Source of the DNA: Hyphomicrobiales bacterium
GTDB lineage: Bacteria > Pseudomonadota > Alphaproteobacteria > Rhizobiales > Methyloligellaceae
NCBI GenBank assembly: GCA_022361215.1
Contig: JAKSBI010000530.1
Location: forward strand, 1-37,757
Direction: 5' to 3'
DNA: 37,757 nt
The notes under the pieces are model-generated. The model was not told the DNA's origin and made no database searches. It worked only from the letters and a program-made list of their open reading frames with translations. Below, in pieces: positions 25,864 to 35,352 of this stretch; the first letter of the stretch is position 1; each line of letters begins with the position of its first letter. A program made the translations under genes and the position numbers.

Positions 25864-28290
25864 ATGACCATGGAACCCATCAGCCGGCTCGCGGCCGTGC
25901 TGGCCATGCTGTGTGCGATGGCCGTAGCGGCGCTTGCGGAAGAGCCGGACGGCCTGATTCCGGACCCGCCCGAGGCGGCGCAGCCGCAGGCCCTCAACAT
26001 CGCAGCCCCGCTGGCCCCCTGGCAGGCGACGCTGCGCCGGATCGAGAAGGCGCTCGGGCGGACGAAGCTGACCGACAGCGCGCTCGAGAAGATTCGCGAC
26101 GAGCTCGACCGCGTGCAGACGGAAGCCCTGGGCTTCGTCGAAAAGAACGAGCCGCGCTTCGTCGAGGCCCAGGCGCAGCTTGAGAAGCTGGGGCCGCCGC
26201 CCGACAAGGACGCGGCCAAGCCGGAATCGGATCCGGTCGCCCAGGAGCGGGCGAAGCTGACCCAGCTCGTGGCCGAGATCGGCGGGGCCGTGAAGACGGC
26301 AGGGGTCATTGCCGCGCGCGCCAGCCAGCTCCGGGCGCAGGGCCAGGCCATCGCGCGCGAGCGCTTCTCGCAGCAGCTCCTGCAGCGCTTCAAGTCTCCG
26401 CTGCAGCCGGGCGTCTGGACGGACATCTCCAGAGAGTTCGGCGGGGCCTGGCGCAGCTTCAAGCTGCTGATCGACGACTGGCTGGGCAGCATGCCGAGCC
26501 GGTGGCCGCTCGTCCTGACCGCGCTCGCCGCCCTCGGGCTCTTCGTTCCCCTGTGGTGGATCTGCCGCATCTGGGTCGACCGGCTGCGCTATCCGGCGGA
26601 GCTCGGCGAGATCGAGTTTTTCGAGCGGGCCAGGTCGGCGCTCTGGGTGACCGGTCTGCGCGCGCTGCCCTTCTTCGGCCTGGCGGCGGTCCTCTATGGC
26701 GGGCTTTACGCCTTCGACGTGCTCCCCAACCGGATCGACACGCTCGCCATAACGCTTTGCCTCACCATCGCCGGGGTTGCGGCGGCCAGAGCGTTGCTGA
26801 CCACGATCCTCGCCCCCACGCGGCCCTATTGGCGCATCTATCCGGCCTCGGACGCGCGCGCCCGGCGCATGAACCACATGCTCGGGGCGATCGTCGTCGT
26901 TTACGGCGTCGACCTGTTTCTGGCGCGCCTGAACGAGGTTCTGGTCTCTCCCCTGCCCCTGACGATCACACAGAGCTTCTTCGCCAGCGTCCTCTTCGCC
27001 GTGCTGCTGGCCGCGGCCCTGCGCGCGCCGGCAGGGGCGGACGAGGGACAGCGTCCGCGCTGGCTGGCCTGGATCAGGATCCCGCTCTGGGCGATGGTCA
27101 TCGCCATTCTGGCCGCCGGCGCGACCGGCTACATCGCCCTCGCCCGCTTCCTCGCCACTCAGGTCGTGGTGACGGGCTCCATTCTCGTGGTGCTTTATCT
27201 GCTCTACATCACCGTCGACGAGATCGCCGACAGTATGGTGAAGCCCGATACGCTGATCGGCGGCTGGCTGATGCAGCGTATGTCGGTGAGCCCGGCGCGG
27301 GCCGAGCAGATCAGCGTGGTGACGCTGCTGCTGCTCAACCTGCTGCTGATCACCATCGGCCTGCCGCTGCTGGCCCTGCAATGGGGCTTTAGCTGGGACG
27401 ACGTTCAGAGCTGGCTGAAGGCCGCCTATTTCGGGTTCGAGATCGGCCATCTGCGCATTTCGCTCGCCGCTATCCTGTTCGCCCTTCTGCTGTTCGCGGT
27501 CGGTCTCTACGTGGCAAGGGTGATCGCCAACTGGCTCGACCGGCGCATCCTGTCGCGGGCCCGCCTCGACCGCGGCCTCAGGGATTCGATCCGCACCGGC
27601 CTCGGCTATGTCGGCGTCGTGATCGCCTTCCTGATCGCGGTCTCCTATGTGGGCGCCGACTTCACCGACCTGGCGCTGGTGGCCGGCGCGCTGTCGGTGG
27701 GCATCGGCTTCGGCCTGCAGACCATCGTCAACAATTTCGTCTCCGGCATCATTCTGCTCGCGGAACGGCCGATCAAGGTCGGCGACTGGATCGTCGTTGG
27801 TACCGAGGAGGGCTATGTCCGGCGCATCAATGTGCGCGCCACGGAGATCGAGACCTTCGAGCGCTCGCACGTGATCATCCCGAACTCGAGCCTGATCGGC
27901 GGCGAGGTGAAGAACTGGATGCTGCGCAGCCCCGTGGGCCGGGTCGAGGTGGTCGTCGGCGTCTCCTACGACTCCGACCCCGAGCAGGTGCGCGATATCC
28001 TCCTCGGCATCGCCCATGCGCATGAGGCGATCCTCCAGCACCCGGCGCCGTTCGTCCGGTTCATGGATTTCGGGGCCAGCTCCCTGGACTTCTCGCTGCG
28101 CGCCTATATCGGCAACATCGATTCGTCGCTGTCCGTGCGCAGCGACCTGCGCTTCGCCATCTTCGCCGCCTTCCGCGAGGCGGGCATCGAGATCCCGTTC
28201 CCGCAGCGCGATGTCAATCTGAAGGATATCGACCGTCTCGAAGCGGCCCTCGGCAAGGCGGAGCGCGGCGGGCCTGCGAGCGGGGCTTGA
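25864..28290 (+). CDS. DUF3772 / MscS-family mechanosensitive ion channel
   Basis: An 808-residue inner-membrane channel of the large MscK/YbdG-like type. Signal peptide about 1-25 (LAAVLAMLCAMAVAALAEE). The periplasmic helical region from 50 to 210 includes a DUF3772-type segment around FGGAWRSFKLLIDDWLGSMP. It is followed by about ten membrane helices, then the MscS core at about 590-780: the pore helix and SVGIGFGLQTIVNNFVSGIILLAERPIKVGDWIVV, the beta domain (INVRATEIETFERSHVIIPNSSLI), and the C-terminal cage (FVRFMDFGASSLDFSLRAYI). It should release solutes during hypo-osmotic shock. It ends 26 bases from the convergent TPR gene. A second ATG at 25870 is also possible. Confidence 0.93.
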   Translation: MTMEPISRLAAVLAMLCAMAVAALAEEPDGLIPDPPEAAQPQALNIAAPLAPWQATLRRIEKALGRTKLTDSALEKIRDELDRVQTEALGFVEKNEPRFVEAQAQLEKLGPPPDKDAAKPESDPVAQERAKLTQLVAEIGGAVKTAGVIAARASQLRAQGQAIARERFSQQLLQRFKSPLQPGVWTDISREFGGAWRSFKLLIDDWLGSMPSRWPLVLTALAALGLFVPLWWICRIWVDRLRYPAELGEIEFFERARSALWVTGLRALPFFGLAAVLYGGLYAFDVLPNRIDTLAITLCLTIAGVAAARALLTTILAPTRPYWRIYPASDARARRMNHMLGAIVVVYGVDLFLARLNEVLVSPLPLTITQSFFASVLFAVLLAAALRAPAGADEGQRPRWLAWIRIPLWAMVIAILAAGATGYIALARFLATQVVVTGSILVVLYLLYITVDEIADSMVKPDTLIGGWLMQRMSVSPARAEQISVVTLLLLNLLLITIGLPLLALQWGFSWDDVQSWLKAAYFGFEIGHLRISLAAILFALLLFAVGLYVARVIANWLDRRILSRARLDRGLRDSIRTGLGYVGVVIAFLIAVSYVGADFTDLALVAGALSVGIGFGLQTIVNNFVSGIILLAERPIKVGDWIVVGTEEGYVRRINVRATEIETFERSHVIIPNSSLIGGEVKNWMLRSPVGRVEVVVGVSYDSDPEQVRDILLGIAHAHEAILQHPAPFVRFMDFGASSLDFSLRAYIGNIDSSLSVRSDLRFAIFAAFREAGIEIPFPQRDVNLKDIDRLEAALGKAERGGPASGA

Positions 28291-28316: not shown

Positions 28317-31300
28317 TCAGCCCGCCCGGCCCTGCGCCGCGCCGACGTCGGTCTGGCTGGTCTTGGGATCGACGAAACGCTTGCGGAAGTCCTTCATGAA
28401 GGCGTCGAGCGTATCCGTCGCGGCGATTTCCTTCGCAAGGCGGCGAAAATCGATGCCCTGGGCGTTCACCGGCCGCGTCACCAGGGTGAAGGCTTCGGCG
28501 TCGGGCGTCTTCAGCATCTTGCCGTAGAACTTCTTGCGCAGACGATCGAGCGCGAACTGATCGCTGGCGAGCGAGTATGAGATCCCGGCCCGCAGCACGT
28601 CGAAGCGCTCCCCGTCGGCCAGCGGCTTCGGCATCTGCCAGCGGTCGCCGAGCGTCTTCTCGAGCTGCTCGCCCGCCTTCTGCCATTTCTGCGCCATCCA
28701 GAGCGCGTCCGACTTCAAGCGCTCGACATCCTTGCCCTGCATGGTGTTGAGGATCTCGATGGCCGCTTCCGCCCGCCCCAGCTCGCCAAGGGCGCGGGCT
28801 TCCAGGAGGTTGCGGCTGCGGTGCATCTCGTTGGGCAGGCCGGCCTGCCGCGTCCGCCGCAGCGTGCGCAGCGCCAGGTCGGGCTTGCGGTTCATCATGT
28901 GCACCATGGCCAGCCGGGTCGCGACCTGCGCCCGCGCCGCGCCCGACAGGCGCTTGCGCACCTGGTGGTCCAGCAGCTCGGCCGCCTGGTCCAGCAGGTC
29001 CACCGAGATCAGCCGGTCCGCAAGCTGGCGGATCATCTCGTCGCCGAGCCGCCCGACCGGCGTCAGCTCGCGGTGGTCGTAGTAGAGGCTGAGCGCTTCG
29101 ATCGGCTTCAGGGCGTCGCTCCTGCCGCCGATGAACAGGCCCTTGAAGACGTCCTTCATGTCGTCCTGGATCTGCAAGGCGATGTCGGATCTCGGAAACG
29201 CCAGCACCGCGTTCTTCATGACGTCGAAGGCATCGCGGTAGCGCGCCGCCCTGACGTACAGGCTCGCCAGCAGGCGCAGCGTTCTCAGCTCCACATCGTC
29301 GCCGCGCCAGACGAGCTGAAGCCGCTCCAGGCTCTTGATCGCCTCCTCGTCGGCGATCTTCTTCATCTTGAGCAGCAGCGAGATCGTCCGGAGCTCGGCC
29401 TCGGCCACCGCCGGCCGGACGTCGCTCTTCAGCACGACATCGAACGACTGAAGCGCGGTCTCGCTCTGGCCCGTCTCGCCCAGATACCAGCCCTTCAGCA
29501 GGTCGGCCTCCGCGGAAAGCCGTCGCGGCAGCGCCGCGTCCGGCAGCGCGTCCAGCTCGTCCGCGGCGCGGTCGAGCCGGGCCAGCTCCAGCGCCGCGCG
29601 GGCCGCGGCCAGGCGGAAGCGGGCCTGCAGGTCGGCGCTGTAGGACTCGATCGCCAGCGCGCCCTCGTGAAAGCTGCGCAGCGCGGCGCTCCAGTCCTTG
29701 TCCTGGACCTGAAGCAGGCCGCGCCAGAGCGCTGCATCCTGATCGTTGGCGAGCGCGTGCACCTCCAGGTCCTTGCGCGCATCGTCGGCGCGTCCGCTGA
29801 GGACGTTGGCGGCGCCGCGCATGATGTTGAAGGAGGGATCGCCGCCGATCTTGGGATCGGCATCGGACATCTGCCGCAGCACGCCGAGGGCTTCCATGGT
29901 CATGCCGTTGGCCAGATAGGACCTGGCCAGGGAGAAGCGCAATCCGGTCCGCTCCTCCGGCGGGCTGACCGCGATGGCGCGCTGCTGCTTCGAGAGCTGG
30001 CCGGAGAGCCGGCTCGGATCCCTGACGCGCCAGCCGGCGAAGTCGAGGAAGCCGGCGCGCGCCGACTTGTCGAGCGACTGCTTGCCGGGAACGTATTGCC
30101 GGGCGAACCCGGCCGACAGCGTCAGGCCCTTGTGGCGCGTGACGACGACCTCGTCGAACCGCTGCCGGACGCCGATGTCGTCGGAGTTGGGCCGGATGGC
30201 GATGCCATGAGTGGTCGGCAGCGCCGTGAACTCGACGAAGTCCTGCGGCTTGGTCACGCTACGCGGCGGCGCGAAGGCGGTGACCACGGCGATGCGGTCG
30301 CCGATCTCCGTATCGTGCAGCCAGTGCACGCGACCGGGGTTCTTCAGGGCGATCCGGATGACCGACCGGTTGTCGCGGCGCAGCGCCCGCTTCAGGTTGA
30401 GCGGCTCGGCCTCGCCGGTGATCAGATCGCCGATGTCGACGGTCCAGGAGCTGTCGTTGTGCGAGACATAGCTCAGCCAGGGCCGCGACAGCGTCAGCCG
30501 GAAATACTGCATCGAGCCGGAGCGCACATGCTCCATGTCTACCACCTTGCTGCCGGGCGGGTCGCGCAGCGCGGCATCGTCGAGCTTCACATTGGAATCG
30601 AACACCAGCCAGATCGTGCGGCCGCGCCGGAAGACGGCCCCCGAGATCGGCTTGGGGAAGGGAAAGACCAGCCGCAGATTGGCGCCGGCCTCGCGCACCT
30701 GCACCGGCACCTTCTCGCCTGCCGGCACCGGCTTCGCCACGGGCTTGGGCTTGGCTGAAGGGGCCGGCGTCTTCGCCGGCGCGGCCTTCGGCTTCTTCGG
30801 CGGGGCCGGCGGCATCGTCTTCGCCATGCGCTTGCGTGCCGCCGGCAGCTCGGGCTGTGCCAGCCGCTTCGCGGCGCCGGGCGCGTCCCAGTCGCCATAG
30901 TCGTCCGCGCGATACTTGCGCGGCTCGAAGCGCATGACGGCGGACTGGAACTCGGGCTGCGACACGGGCTCGAACCCGTCTCCCTTCGCCTCCGAGATAT
31001 CCGATTGCGCCGCCAGCCGCGTCTCCGCCTCGGCCTTGGCTGCCTTTTTCGGTTTGCGGGGCGCCTGCGTCTTCTCCGCGGTCTCGTCGTCGACGGCCTT
31101 CGCCGCCTCCGCCACCGACGCGTCCAGCGCCGCCTCCGGACCGGTCAGGTCGACGATATAGGAGAACCCTTCGCGGAAGCCGCGCACGTCGACGTCGTCG
31201 TCGACGGTGAGCTGAATCGTCATACCGGTCTCGAGCTTCTTGGACTTGACCGTGCGCAGGAATTTCGGGGGATCGACCTTGAGCCGCGAGAGGTCGAGCG

Positions 31301-31994
31301 GCGCCTGCTGTCCGAAGGTGAGCGCGATCTGATTACCCTGACGGCCCATATTCACCGTCACGAACTTGTTCCACTCGAAGACGATGCGGCTGAAGGTGGG
31401 CTGGTGCGCCAGGCGCACCTTGACCTTGTAGGGCACCTTGACGTGCTTGAGCTGGATCGCCTGCACGCGCTCCCTCTCCTCGGCCTCCGCCGCCGCGCGG
31501 GCCAGCTCGCGCATCACCGACTGCGGCAGCACCGGCGGCGCGCCCCTCCAGGACGGCGGCAGCAGGTCCACGAACAGCTTCTTGCCCGCCTCCATGATGT
31601 TGACCTTGAACGACCGGACCAGCGCGAAGCGGATGGCGCGCCCGTCCGGGTCCCGCCGCGAGATCGACACATAGTCCGAGAGCGAGAGCGCCACCTCCTC
31701 CAGATTGATGTTCACAGCCTCGTCGAAGGACAGCACCAGAACGCCCGATGCGAGCTCGTCCCTGTAGACCGGCAGCCGGTCGAACTCGATCACCAGGCGG
31801 CCGAAGCCCACCTCCTTGCGGGCGTTGACGGTGGCGTCGATCTCGCCCAGCGCCGGCGTCAAGGCGGCGAACGCGAGCGCCAGCGTCACGGCGGCGAAGG
31901 TCAGGCCCCGGCGGACGGCCTCGACGAGCGCGCGCAAGCGCCGGCGGCCGGCAGCGGCCGGCTCGCGACAGTCGATCTCGACGAGAGGATTCAA
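28317..31994 (-). CDS. Large periplasmic AMIN-like/TPR protein of the flagellar cluster
   Basis: A 1225-residue protein of unknown function. The N-terminus has a signal-like helix at about 30-50 (LTFAAVTLALAFAALTPALG). Three beta-rich AMIN-like modules follow at about 58-150, 190-290 and 434-540 (pattern RLVIEF/RIVFEW/LRLVFPF, then a charged turn and a closing FVDLL, YIVDL or WTVDIGD). The linker at about 300-430 is lysine-, proline- and alanine-rich, like a peptidoglycan- or wall-spanning tether. From about 650 to 1170 there are helical TPR-like repeats. The start is TTG, supported by AAGGAGGG nine bases upstream. No in-frame ATG occurs before residue 130 or so. A perfect CtrA box lies about 90 bases upstream. 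It follows fliM, DUF6468 and motE-like genes on the same strand. Confidence 0.85.
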   Translation of the reverse strand: MNPLVEIDCREPAAAGRRRLRALVEAVRRGLTFAAVTLALAFAALTPALGEIDATVNARKEVGFGRLVIEFDRLPVYRDELASGVLVLSFDEAVNINLEEVALSLSDYVSISRRDPDGRAIRFALVRSFKVNIMEAGKKLFVDLLPPSWRGAPPVLPQSVMRELARAAAEAEERERVQAIQLKHVKVPYKVKVRLAHQPTFSRIVFEWNKFVTVNMGRQGNQIALTFGQQAPLDLSRLKVDPPKFLRTVKSKKLETGMTIQLTVDDDVDVRGFREGFSYIVDLTGPEAALDASVAEAAKAVDDETAEKTQAPRKPKKAAKAEAETRLAAQSDISEAKGDGFEPVSQPEFQSAVMRFEPRKYRADDYGDWDAPGAAKRLAQPELPAARKRMAKTMPPAPPKKPKAAPAKTPAPSAKPKPVAKPVPAGEKVPVQVREAGANLRLVFPFPKPISGAVFRRGRTIWLVFDSNVKLDDAALRDPPGSKVVDMEHVRSGSMQYFRLTLSRPWLSYVSHNDSSWTVDIGDLITGEAEPLNLKRALRRDNRSVIRIALKNPGRVHWLHDTEIGDRIAVVTAFAPPRSVTKPQDFVEFTALPTTHGIAIRPNSDDIGVRQRFDEVVVTRHKGLTLSAGFARQYVPGKQSLDKSARAGFLDFAGWRVRDPSRLSGQLSKQQRAIAVSPPEERTGLRFSLARSYLANGMTMEALGVLRQMSDADPKIGGDPSFNIMRGAANVLSGRADDARKDLEVHALANDQDAALWRGLLQVQDKDWSAALRSFHEGALAIESYSADLQARFRLAAARAALELARLDRAADELDALPDAALPRRLSAEADLLKGWYLGETGQSETALQSFDVVLKSDVRPAVAEAELRTISLLLKMKKIADEEAIKSLERLQLVWRGDDVELRTLRLLASLYVRAARYRDAFDVMKNAVLAFPRSDIALQIQDDMKDVFKGLFIGGRSDALKPIEALSLYYDHRELTPVGRLGDEMIRQLADRLISVDLLDQAAELLDHQVRKRLSGAARAQVATRLAMVHMMNRKPDLALRTLRRTRQAGLPNEMHRSRNLLEARALGELGRAEAAIEILNTMQGKDVERLKSDALWMAQKWQKAGEQLEKTLGDRWQMPKPLADGERFDVLRAGISYSLASDQFALDRLRKKFYGKMLKTPDAEAFTLVTRPVNAQGIDFRRLAKEIAATDTLDAFMKDFRKRFVDPKTSQTDVGAAQGRAG

Positions 31995-32080
31995 GACGCC
32001 GCTCCCTCCTTGGGCATCCGCCGGATAGAGGCTGCGGGGCTCGCCGGGCGAGCCCGACGCTCAGACTAGTAAAACAGCGG

Positions 32081-32137: not shown

Positions 32138-32920
32138 TCAGCGGGGCGCGGGGCTCTGGATCTTCGGAAGCGTGCTGTTCGGCCCCGGAACGACCTGGCT
32201 CTCGCTCGCCAGCTCCAGGGTCAGCCGCTGCGCGGCCTTGGTCTCCATCGCCGCCAGGATCTCGGCCATGGCGCGCGGCTTGATGCGCTTGGCCAGGCCC
32301 TTCTGGACCTCGATGTCCAGGCGGTTGAAGATCTTCGCGGCCTTCTTCGGCTTCATGCCCGAATACATCTTCACCAGACCGGCGAGCTGCTTGTCCCGCT
32401 CCTTGTCCTGCTTCTTGTGCGTCTTCTCGATGCGGGCCTCGATCGCCTTGAGCTGCGTTATGCGCTTCTGGACGCGCTGCTCGGCCGCTTTCAGCAGGTT
32501 CTCGCGAAGCTGCAGCTCGCGCTCGCGCTTTTCCAGCTCCTTGCGCCGCCTGGCGAGGCTTTGCAGCACCGCAAGCTCCGCGCTTGTCGGCGTCGCCTGC
32601 GGCCCCTTCGCAGGACCGCTCAAGGGCCCCGCGGGCGCCTGCTGGCCCGTCTCGGCCGCCGCCATCTTCGTCCCCTGGCCGTCATTCTCCGCGCCGGGCT
32701 CCGCCGCCTCCGCCTCGGCACCGGCCTCCTCCGTCTCGGTCGCCTCGGGCGCGGCCGCGGCCTGCTCCTGCTGGGCGGCGGCCGCCTCGGTGTTCTGGGC
32801 GCTGGCCGGCGCGGTGCCCGAAAGCATGGAGCCGTCGCCGAACATGAGCCCGGCCAGCTTCAGCACGAACAGGCAGAACGCGGCGAACGCCACCAGCGGC
32901 AGCAGGCGGACGGGCTGCAT
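32138..32920 (-). CDS. MotE-like flagellar protein (MgtE-N-type C-terminal domain)
   Basis: A 260-residue protein with one N-terminal membrane helix or uncleaved signal (residues 5-27), an alanine/glutamate-rich spacer, a coiled coil at about 113-170 (LARRRKELEKRERELQLRENLLKAAEQRV), and a C-terminal MgtE-N/MotE-like domain (YSGMKPKKAAKIFNRLDIEVQKGLAKRIKPRAMAEILAAM). Rhizobial MotE is a periplasmic chaperone for the motor protein MotC, and related proteins sit in flagellar clusters of Rhodospirillales. The start shares one base with the preceding stop (TGATG), so it is coupled to the DUF6468 gene. Confidence 0.85.
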   Translation of the reverse strand: MQPVRLLPLVAFAAFCLFVLKLAGLMFGDGSMLSGTAPASAQNTEAAAAQQEQAAAAPEATETEEAGAEAEAAEPGAENDGQGTKMAAAETGQQAPAGPLSGPAKGPQATPTSAELAVLQSLARRRKELEKRERELQLRENLLKAAEQRVQKRITQLKAIEARIEKTHKKQDKERDKQLAGLVKMYSGMKPKKAAKIFNRLDIEVQKGLAKRIKPRAMAEILAAMETKAAQRLTLELASESQVVPGPNSTLPKIQSPAPR

Positions 32921-33393
32921 CAGCCGGCCTCCCGATGCGCTTTCGCCCCATCGGCGTCGGAGCGACGCTGGGCGTTGAGCAACCCGAGACCCACCTGGCT
33001 CGCGCGCGGCGCAGGCCGTGGCGGGGCGGCGGGTCGTGCCGCAGGCTCGGGCGCCGTGCGGCGCGGCGGCGCGCCCGCCACCGCCTTCAGCTTCGAAAGC
33101 AGGTCCTCGCCCTGCTCGAGCGCGACGGCGAGCTGCGCGTTGAGCTCCGCCGCCCCGTCGATACGGGCCGTCAAGGTCTCCTCCGCGGTCCCGGCGGTCG
33201 AGCGCAGCGTCGCGATGGCGTTCTCCGCCTGCCCCGTCGCCGCGCTCAGGTCCCGGATCACGCTGCGCATGTCGGACTGTTCCGAGCGCAGCTGCTCGAG
33301 CTTGCGATTGACGATCACGCAGTAGCCGATCGTCACCGCGAGCAGGATCGCGACGAGCAGTTCAATGAAGAGTCCGAAAGAGCCTGCGAGCAT
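32920..33393 (-). CDS. DUF6468-type membrane protein in the flagellar cluster
   Basis: A 157-residue protein of unknown function: an N-terminal membrane helix (LFIELLVAILLAVTIGYCVIV), a coiled-coil segment (RKLEQLRSEQSDMRSVIRDLSAATGQAENAIATLR) and a proline/alanine-rich tail ending in LGLLNAQRRSDADG. It resembles the DUF6468 family found next to fliM in alphaproteobacteria. That assignment is from memory of the family's shape and neighbourhood. It begins two bases after fliM and overlaps the MotE-like gene by one base, so the three are co-translated. Confidence 0.75.
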   Translation of the reverse strand: MLAGSFGLFIELLVAILLAVTIGYCVIVNRKLEQLRSEQSDMRSVIRDLSAATGQAENAIATLRSTAGTAEETLTARIDGAAELNAQLAVALEQGEDLLSKLKAVAGAPPRRTAPEPAARPAAPPRPAPRASQVGLGLLNAQRRSDADGAKAHREAG

Positions 33394-33395
33394 GG

Positions 33396-34583
33396 TCAGA
33401 CCGCCTCCGCCATGGTGTCCTGATCCGCGCCTTCGTCCTGGGCGCCGTTGTTCGGCCGGTCGATGCCGCGCGCCACCCGCACGGCGATATGGTCTCCCAT
33501 GCGGCCGATATTGCCTTGTGTCAGGGGAATGTCCCCGCAGCGCAGCGACACCGGGTCGTCGGGGCCGCAGTTCAGCGCGATGGTCTCGCCGACGCGCAGG
33601 TTCATGACCTGCTTCAGCGGCAGCGTGAGCTGATCCAGCACCGCCTCGATCGGGATCGCGGTCTTGTAGATCTCCGTCGCCAGATGGCTCTCCCAGATGT
33701 TGTCATGGCCGAACTTCTCGCCCATGAAGCCCTGCAGCAGCAGCTCCCGGATCGGCTCCAGCGTACCGTAGGGCAGCAGCACCTCGACGCGCCCGCCGCG
33801 ATCCTCCATATCGATGCGCAGCTTGATCAGAATGGCGGCGTTGGCCTGCCGCGCGATCGCGGCGAAGCGGGGGTTGGTCTCCAGGCGCTCGAGCTCGAAC
33901 CGCACCGGCGACAGCGGCTCGAAGGCCTTCTCCGAGTCCTCCAGGATGACCTCCACGAGCCGGCTCATAAGATTGGTCTCGATGGTGGTGTAGGGCCGGC
34001 CCTCGATACGGATGGCCGGTGTGCCGCGCCCGCCCAGCAGCACGTCGACGATCGAGTAGATCAGGTTCGAGTCCACCGTCATGAGCGCGTAGCCGTCCCA
34101 CTCCACGGCCTTGAACACGGAGATCATGGCCGGCAGCGGGATCGAGTTCAGATAGTCGCCGACGCGCATGGTGGAGATGTTGTCGAGGCTGACCTCCACA
34201 TTGTCGGAGGTGAAGTTGCGCAGGCTGGTGGTCAGCAGCCGCACCAGCCGGTCGAAGACGATCTCGAGCATCGGCAGGCGCTCGTAGGACACCATCGCCG
34301 AATTGATGATCGCCCGGATACCGCTGGTGTCGGTCAGCGCCTGCTCGTCGAGATCGAAGCCCAGCAGGCTGTCGATCTCGTCCTGGTCGAGGATGCGCTC
34401 GCCGCCGCCGGAGGACGACTCCGAGCCGCCGCCGACGTCGCCGTCGTCGATCATCGCGGCCCATTGTGCCGCAACGTCCTCGTCTAGGCCGGCGTCCTCG
34501 CCGTCGCCGTCGTCGCCGTCGAGCGCCGCGCCCCATTCGGCGGCCAGCGCATCTTGATCAAGCTCGTCGTCGTCATCAACCAT
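33396..34583 (-). CDS. fliM: Flagellar motor switch protein FliM
   Basis: A 395-residue C-ring protein that binds phospho-CheY and joins FliG to FliN. The CheY-binding motif ILDQDEIDSLLGF is at residues 64-76, not at the extreme N-terminus. It is preceded by an acidic extension with two related short repeats (LDQDALAAEWGAALDGDDGD at 8-27 and LDEDVAAQWAAMIDDGD at 33-49). The middle domain (ERLPMLEIVFDRLVRLLTTSLRNFTSD through GGRVEVLLPYGTLEPIRELL) and the C-terminal surface domain (VMNLRVGETIALNCGPDDPVSLRCGD) are complete. The gene follows fliL by 13 bases. Confidence 0.96.
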   Translation of the reverse strand: MVDDDDELDQDALAAEWGAALDGDDGDGEDAGLDEDVAAQWAAMIDDGDVGGGSESSSGGGERILDQDEIDSLLGFDLDEQALTDTSGIRAIINSAMVSYERLPMLEIVFDRLVRLLTTSLRNFTSDNVEVSLDNISTMRVGDYLNSIPLPAMISVFKAVEWDGYALMTVDSNLIYSIVDVLLGGRGTPAIRIEGRPYTTIETNLMSRLVEVILEDSEKAFEPLSPVRFELERLETNPRFAAIARQANAAILIKLRIDMEDRGGRVEVLLPYGTLEPIRELLLQGFMGEKFGHDNIWESHLATEIYKTAIPIEAVLDQLTLPLKQVMNLRVGETIALNCGPDDPVSLRCGDIPLTQGNIGRMGDHIAVRVARGIDRPNNGAQDEGADQDTMAEAV

Positions 34584-34596
34584 GGCAGCCGCTCTG

Positions 34597-35133
34597 CTAC
34601 TGGACGATAATTTCCTTGAAGAGAACGCGCGTTACTTTGTTGGGATAAATCTCGATGTTGACACGGCGCAGCAGCTCCTCCTTCAGCCGGAAGATGCCGG
34701 CGGAGCCGTCCAGGTCGGTGCTTCTGAGCTCGCGGAGATAGAGCTGGAACATGTCGAGCACGCGCGGCAGAGCCGGTTGCAGCGCCTCGATCACCTTCTT
34801 GTCCTCCGCCTCCAGCGACACCTTCAGCTTGAGATACTGAGCCCGCTGCTCGGCCGAGCTCAGGTTCACCACCATCTCCGGCAGGTCGTAATAGACGAGC
34901 GGCGCCTTCTGACCGTCGCCCGCGCCGCCGCCGGGCGCGAACAGGCCGAACATGTCCACGGCAACGTAACCGCCGCCGCCCAGCGCCAGCAGCAGAGGCA
35001 CGATCACGGCCACCAGCTTCAAAGGGCCCGGCCCGCGCTTCTTCGGTGCCGCTTCGGCGGCCTCGACCTCTGCGAGCTGGTCCTGGCTCTCGTCGTCGCT
35101 CTCGGCCTCGGTTGCCTCGGGCTCGTCGCTCAT
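34597..35133 (-). CDS. fliL: Flagellar basal body-associated protein FliL
   Basis: A 178-residue inner-membrane protein that surrounds the stator. An acidic cytoplasmic N-terminus precedes one membrane helix (LKLVAVIVPLLLALGGGGYVAV). The periplasmic FliL domain then has VYYDLPEMVVNLSS, AQYLKLKVSLEAED and the C-terminal RVNIEIYPNKVTRVLFKEIIVQ. The start MSDEPEATEAES gives the normal length. The frame stays open to 35340, but that part has no family similarity. It is the first gene of fliL-fliM-DUF6468-motE-like, divergent from flgF. Confidence 0.95.
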   Translation of the reverse strand: MSDEPEATEAESDDESQDQLAEVEAAEAAPKKRGPGPLKLVAVIVPLLLALGGGGYVAVDMFGLFAPGGGAGDGQKAPLVYYDLPEMVVNLSSAEQRAQYLKLKVSLEAEDKKVIEALQPALPRVLDMFQLYLRELRSTDLDGSAGIFRLKEELLRRVNIEIYPNKVTRVLFKEIIVQ

Positions 35134-35352
35134 TCCGGCAGACTCCGCATCGCTCCATCCGCTTGGAGCGTCAGCATTTTCGGCGCTTTCCGCCGCCCTC
35201 GGGATCAGTCGGCATTGTTGGGCCGACAGGGTTAACGAATGGTTTCCGAAAGGCCCAAAGCGGCAATATTTGCCCGGCCGTTTTTTCCGCCCGGCGCGTG
35301 CCGCCGCTCCCCATGGAATCGATAAACTATTGATATACAATTATTTTCCATC

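Follow-up and report, generated by a model that had tools for sequence, protein, structure and literature searches.

A probable FssB/MotK-family periplasmic flagellar motor scaffold with three AMIN-like modules in a Hyphomicrobiales bacterium

The protein considered here, of 1225 residues, is encoded by the open reading frame (ORF) 31994..28317 (minus strand, TTG start at 31994-31992, stop at 28317-28319) of a 37,757-nucleotide stretch of a Hyphomicrobiales bacterium (assembly GCA_022361215.1, contig JAKSBI010000530.1), the whole of which was analysed and is referred to as the window. It is quite likely a periplasmic scaffold of the FssB/MotK family, set between the cell wall and the flagellar motor, where it would recruit, place or activate the stators. 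A preliminary description, made from the letters alone, had presented the protein as undescribed, which does not hold, FssB (PMC7885107) and MotK (PMC10954123) having been published; it is a well-supported member of a family known from literature of 2021 to 2026 rather than an undescribed system. Its anatomy and folds, its conservation, the CtrA box before its gene, the co-occurrence with fliM and DUF6468, the operon position and the profile homology with the proteins found at the MotK position are established here.

Searches of Pfam, NCBIfam and PDB sequences with the single protein yielded only weak matches to tetratricopeptide repeat (TPR) and pentatricopeptide repeat proteins, and the Pfam AMIN model did not match the window protein even at an E value of 10. 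The three beta-rich modules of the N-terminal half are assigned as AMIN-like by profile-profile comparison and by fold. They share a common strand order in the AlphaFold2 model, which was computed with three sequences and is of modest quality in its N-terminal part (mean predicted local distance difference test, pLDDT, 56), and the profiles relate module 1 to module 2 with a probability of 99.6%, module 1 to module 3 with 97.9% and module 2 to module 3 with 98.2%, so that on sequence grounds the modules are mutually homologous. With VIA-align, module 2 of the model superposes on the AMIN domain of AmiC (4bin) with a Z score of 12.6 over 101 residues at 2.4 Å; the AMIN domains of PilQ are also matched (4aqz and 4av2, Z about 10.5; for 4av2, Z 10.3, 91 residues, 2.2 Å). 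For module 3 the match is a chain from Synechocystis (5h3k, Z 11.2) that is titled a hypothetical protein and that we would read as AMIN-like from the fold match. The module 2 profile matches the AMIN domains of amidases at 95.5%; no direct match to amidase AMIN profiles was found for module 3. The family profile (A1) also finds the AMIN part of two proteins of other Proteobacteria in which AMIN and amidase domains are combined, as confirmed by Pfam. A small heat-shock or CS-domain identity of the beta modules was considered and set aside, the beta sandwich being shared and the Z scores lower (about 8 or less).

A Lys/Pro/Ala-rich tether had also been described. It exists, at about residues 291-430, where the chain is disordered in the model and the conservation is the lowest of the whole protein, but it lies between the second and the third AMIN module and not between the AMIN modules and the TPRs. 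The stretch between AMIN 3 and the TPRs is occupied by a further conserved beta region (residues 529-632), missed in the preliminary description, which carries the sequence HWLxDxEIGDRIAVVTA..P.. and is modelled without a confident fold; no profile relation of this domain was detected to AMIN modules 1-3, nor to any Pfam family matched. The C-terminal part, residues about 660-1210, is built of about 31 helices in the AlphaFold2 model, and was identified as TPR-type by profile search of the PDB and by fold search. Its best PDB matches are generic TPR proteins, and it is among such proteins that a chain of 9hmf, a periplasmic scaffold of the Campylobacter flagellum, is found (Foldseek E 2.3e-5, rank 13). 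SctY, EccA and PorW/SprE were examined as possible identities and dropped, their TPR matches being below threshold. No catalytic domain was found in the protein. At the N-terminus, the hydrophobic helix is also present in the homologues L002 and L003. Thus, the comparison of the predicted structure with AMIN and TPR folds, which had been proposed as a check, recovered both: the three AMIN-like modules agree with the model, with the alignments to AmiC and PilQ and with the inter-module profiles, and the long helical region with the helix count and the PDB profile search.

The distribution of the protein was determined in a close sample of 61 relatives and in a class-wide sample of 192 Alphaproteobacteria genomes with a completeness of at least 90%. 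It is present in 28 of the 61 relatives, exactly the set in which DUF6468 scores above its cut-off, and fliM accompanies it in 27 of the 28, the exception (G017, 84% complete) having the gene and no fliM found. In two other close relatives the protein is missing and the only fliM is a divergent one; a MotC-type system is present in one of these (G057). Class-wide, 104 of the 112 genomes with fliM carry it versus 4 of the 80 without fliM (Fisher test, 9e-39); such values overstate independence, the genomes being related, and the pattern is still plain. Where both the protein and DUF6468 are present (94 genomes), the two genes lie within 10 kb of each other in 72; as for the remaining 22, they are on different contigs in 18, far apart in three and 10.5 kb apart in one. 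Twelve genomes of the class sample carry the protein and no detectable DUF6468. Full-length matches in the phylum sample were within the Alphaproteobacteria only, and a plasmid search gave partial TPR matches only. The homologues therefore track fliM and adjoin DUF6468 and motE, as the neighbourhood survey suggested in the preliminary description was meant to establish, but the claim made there that the protein is specific to one alphaproteobacterial group must be abandoned, the family being class-wide.

The single-protein query had no match in eight fliM-bearing genomes of the class sample. Three of them (G241, G189 and G067) have a divergent FliM with a different MotA/MotB set, and these regions belong to another type of flagellum; in G228 the order fliM-DUF6468-motE is followed by an unrelated gene, a transporter-like ORF (L077:4506-6615), and G155 gave weak profile matches only. 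A second copy, 30% identical, was observed beside the usual one in one relative (G015, contig C25:19931-23317); it may be a paralogue, part of a second flagellar system or a contamination.

The family is also met in the arrangement described for MotK. The order fliL-DUF6468-motE-motA-X was found at two loci (L094 and L098), fliL, motE and motA precede X at L095 and motA-X is seen at L093; the MotK-type order was found in the genomes G335, G575 and G607. Aligned with the family of the window protein, the X proteins of these four loci gave an hhalign probability of 99.4% (E 5e-22, 395 columns), and the proteins at the MotK position were also matched by the whole-genome profile search. No BLAST similarity between MotK and Caulobacter proteins was reported (PMC10954123). 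Part of the hhalign score may reflect general TPR similarity; common descent is nevertheless the better reading, because the operon position and the end motif are both shared.

Shorter forms were also observed. At L060:5996-7963, fliL-fliM-DUF6468-like-motE is followed by a homologue (ORF of 655 residues) whose match to the profile is confined to the TPR half, a form from which the AMIN half has apparently been lost. The 655-residue protein of G091 was examined as a Cereibacter-type operon and rejected, no motA being in that place. At L091:7758-9608 and L092:5489-7363 the gene beside those resembling flgE, flgK and flgL encodes a protein of 616-624 residues in which no AMIN part was detected; profile comparison shows the copy at L091 to be a homologue of the TPR half (97.9%). 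In G607 a protein of this 616-624 residue type is on another contig than the MotK-type operon, which suggests that another flagellar system is present and has a family member to itself.

The signals upstream of the gene were found as previously described. The TTG start is preceded by AGGAGG at 10 nucleotides, and an exact CtrA-type box (32095-32081, TTAAGCTGTCGTTAA) lies 87 nucleotides upstream, with 0.29 sites of at most one mismatch expected per window by chance. Among the 18 homologue upstream regions examined, 11 have an exact box 44-114 nucleotides before the start, in most cases accompanied by a second, overlapping half-site, and the spacer letters vary while TTAA is kept; no box was found in the more distant homologues L023-L025. 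This conservation is a phylogenetic footprint rather than a chance match.

Table 1. Features of the gene, its product and its neighbours in the window (coordinates in nucleotides of the window).
Feature	Position	Strand	Basis or remark
Scaffold gene, FssB/MotK-family periplasmic flagellar motor protein	28317..31994	minus	1225 residues, TTG start; ORF
Ribosome-binding site AGGAGG	32005..32010	minus	10 nucleotides before TTG; read from sequence
CtrA-type box TTAA-N7-TTAA	32081..32095	minus	exact match, 87 nucleotides upstream of start
Signal peptide-like segment, residues about 27-51 (RR...LTFAAVTLALAFAALTPALG)	31842..31916	minus	read from sequence
AMIN module 1, residues 56-150	31545..31829	minus	AlphaFold2 strands; profile match to module 2
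AMIN module 2, residues 186-290	31125..31439	minus	VIA-align Z 12.6 to AmiC AMIN; profile to amidase AMIN 95.5%
Lys/Pro/Ala-rich low-complexity linker, residues 291-430	30705..31124	minus	pLDDT about 30 over most of its length
AMIN-like module 3, residues 430-528	30411..30707	minus	AlphaFold2 strands; related by profile to modules 1 and 2
Conserved beta-rich domain, residues 529-632	30099..30410	minus	high conservation at 561-620; low model confidence
TPR-type helical region, residues about 660-1210	28365..30017	minus	AlphaFold2, profile, fold
Stretch with the highest conservation in the family, residues 966-1035 (ELTPVGRLGDEMIRQLADRL...VDLLDQAAELLDHQV)	28890..29099	minus	invariant columns, conservation profile
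motE-like gene, E-ring candidate	32138..32920	minus	MgtE_N E 2.4e-4; FlbB collar model E 3.7e-8
DUF6468 protein, probable PflI counterpart	32920..33393	minus	PF20072 E 1.2e-16
fliM	33396..34583	minus	Pfam/NCBIfam
fliL	34597..35340	minus	Pfam/NCBIfam; ORF as listed

The position of the gene directly after fliL, fliM, the DUF6468 gene and a motE-like gene, all on one strand, was confirmed with Pfam and NCBIfam (table 1). The motE-like product has an N-terminal hydrophobic helix, a coiled coil and an MgtE_N-like end; its MgtE_N and FlbB collar matches are both under the curated cut-off, and the gene order fits. The DUF6468 family was also detected in the Caulobacter vibrioides control. The true start of fliL is probably downstream of that of the listed ORF. 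On the other side of the scaffold gene, and convergent to it, a large mechanosensitive-channel protein with DUF3772 is encoded (25864-28290, plus strand), which is unrelated to it.

By analogy with FssB and MotK, from which the role of the window protein is carried over, the protein would be exported to the periplasm, its expression being controlled by CtrA along with that of the flagellar genes. The AMIN modules would bind peptidoglycan, or a neighbouring ring of the envelope, the flexible linker would bridge the gap, and the TPR solenoid would touch both MotE, the protein of the E-ring, and MotB in its periplasmic part. In this way stators would be recruited, positioned or activated around the rotor; of this scheme, the contact with peptidoglycan and the geometry of a spoke are the inferred parts. 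Accordingly with part of what had been proposed, an AMIN/TPR scaffold related to the stators, like PflA, is supported by the evidence and by the literature, but not an undescribed or group-specific one.

Several points weigh against this assignment. The evidence for the window protein is computational, made of sequence, model and analogy, and its putative identity with CC_2058 of Caulobacter rests on gene order and on the published description. AMIN modules need not bind peptidoglycan: in the part of the PflA study available to us the AMIN-like region was compared with that of PilQ and wall binding was not shown (PMC11870540). A generic TPR similarity, moreover, cannot prove a common partner. 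Finally, the source assembly, which consists of 903 contigs, yielded neither motA nor motB; considering this number and the presence of flagellar operons, an assembly gap is the likely reason for the lack of clear motA/motB genes, and motA is present in the 4 genomes of the same family that were tested (77-90% identity to the query).

The protein might instead be an assembly or stability factor, holding MotE or the stators until their incorporation without being a structural part of the motor. The stability of MotE depends on MotK in Cereibacter (PMC10954123) and MotE was first described, in Sinorhizobium, as a chaperone for MotC (PMC13023049), but MotK binds MotB and is found at the pole that bears the flagellum (PMC10954123), a long solenoid anchored by AMIN modules has the look of a scaffold, and the TPR chain that matches by fold is visible in the Campylobacter motor, so that such a role is considered unlikely. 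Even less probable is a primary function in polar placement, in which the protein would fix the site of the flagellum with DUF6468/PflI and the loss of rotation would be secondary. Caulobacter lacking FssB makes filaments that are paralysed as in a motB mutant (PMC7885107), and the twelve genomes with the protein and no detectable DUF6468 also speak against it, although the gene is nearly always beside DUF6468 and PflI of Caulobacter has been linked to flagellar positioning (PMC10954123). The resemblance of modules 1 and 2 to the AMIN domains of cell-wall amidases could, lastly, point to a general protein of the envelope, one whose AMIN modules serve to regulate the turnover of peptidoglycan and which is only incidentally in a flagellar operon. 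With no catalytic domain found, a presence that tracks fliM throughout the class with near absence from genomes without fliM, and a CtrA box and an operon position that are conserved, this explanation is very improbable. A periplasmic scaffold acting on the stators is therefore the preferred reading.

As the paralysed-flagellum mutants of FssB and MotK show, the stators require this family in order to act, but how widely it occurs and how its domains are arranged have been barely described. According to the survey, nearly all the sampled Alphaproteobacteria with fliM also carry a member, and profile comparison unites the fliM-linked with the motA-linked forms in a single family. A wider proposal, tentative when all its parts are taken jointly, is that a single continuous family, recognisable by sequence, may form the wall-to-motor spoke of the CtrA-linked flagellum of Alphaproteobacteria, with a variable number of AMIN modules (none, one or more) and a conserved beta domain before the TPRs; the near-invariant ELTPVG/GDEMIRRLADRL stretch would dock MotE or the stators, and the unrelated MotC would replace the family in Rhizobium-type motors. 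The conserved 966-1035 motif and the 529-632 domain offer themselves as mutation targets for the contacts with MotE and the stators.

Among known systems, MotC of Sinorhizobium-type motors is periplasmic, described as TPR-like in the literature and a partner of MotE, but it belongs to another operon and no sequence or profile similarity was detected: against an NCBIfam-identified MotC of a Rhizobium-type cluster the hhalign probability is 0.4%, a comparison with a single sequence in which very remote homology is possible. PflA of Campylobacter jejuni combines an AMIN-like beta sandwich with many TPRs, has a ring partner of the MotE/FlgY type and acts as a stator scaffold (PMC11870540), the homology having been proposed from structure only. 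MotK of the Fla2 system of Cereibacter sphaeroides is closer, with an AMIN-like N-terminus, TPR-like helices and an operon that includes fliL, DUF6468/pflI and motE. It differs in length and AMIN content (652 residues and one AMIN versus 1225 and three in the window protein), and its gene follows motA in an operon without fliM. MotK binds MotE and MotB and localizes to the flagellated pole, and its loss leaves flagella that are assembled but do not rotate (PMC10954123). FssB of Caulobacter crescentus (CC_2058/CCNA_02137), the gene of which adjoins the motE-like CC_2059, has a Sec-type signal, to which the signal-like segment of the window protein may correspond, and shares with the latter the AMIN-like N-terminus (PMC10954123), the TPR region and the motE-like neighbour. 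FssB is, as published, required for stator function: on its deletion filaments are assembled and rotation is lost, as in a motB mutant, and it was assigned to a stator-dependent pathway (PMC7885107). For FssB, the part of the published account available to us describes a single AMIN-like region at the N-terminus (residues 36-132), versus three in the window protein. FssB and MotK have themselves been placed beside PflA of Campylobacter, all three being seen as E-ring partners (PMC13023049, PMC11870540).

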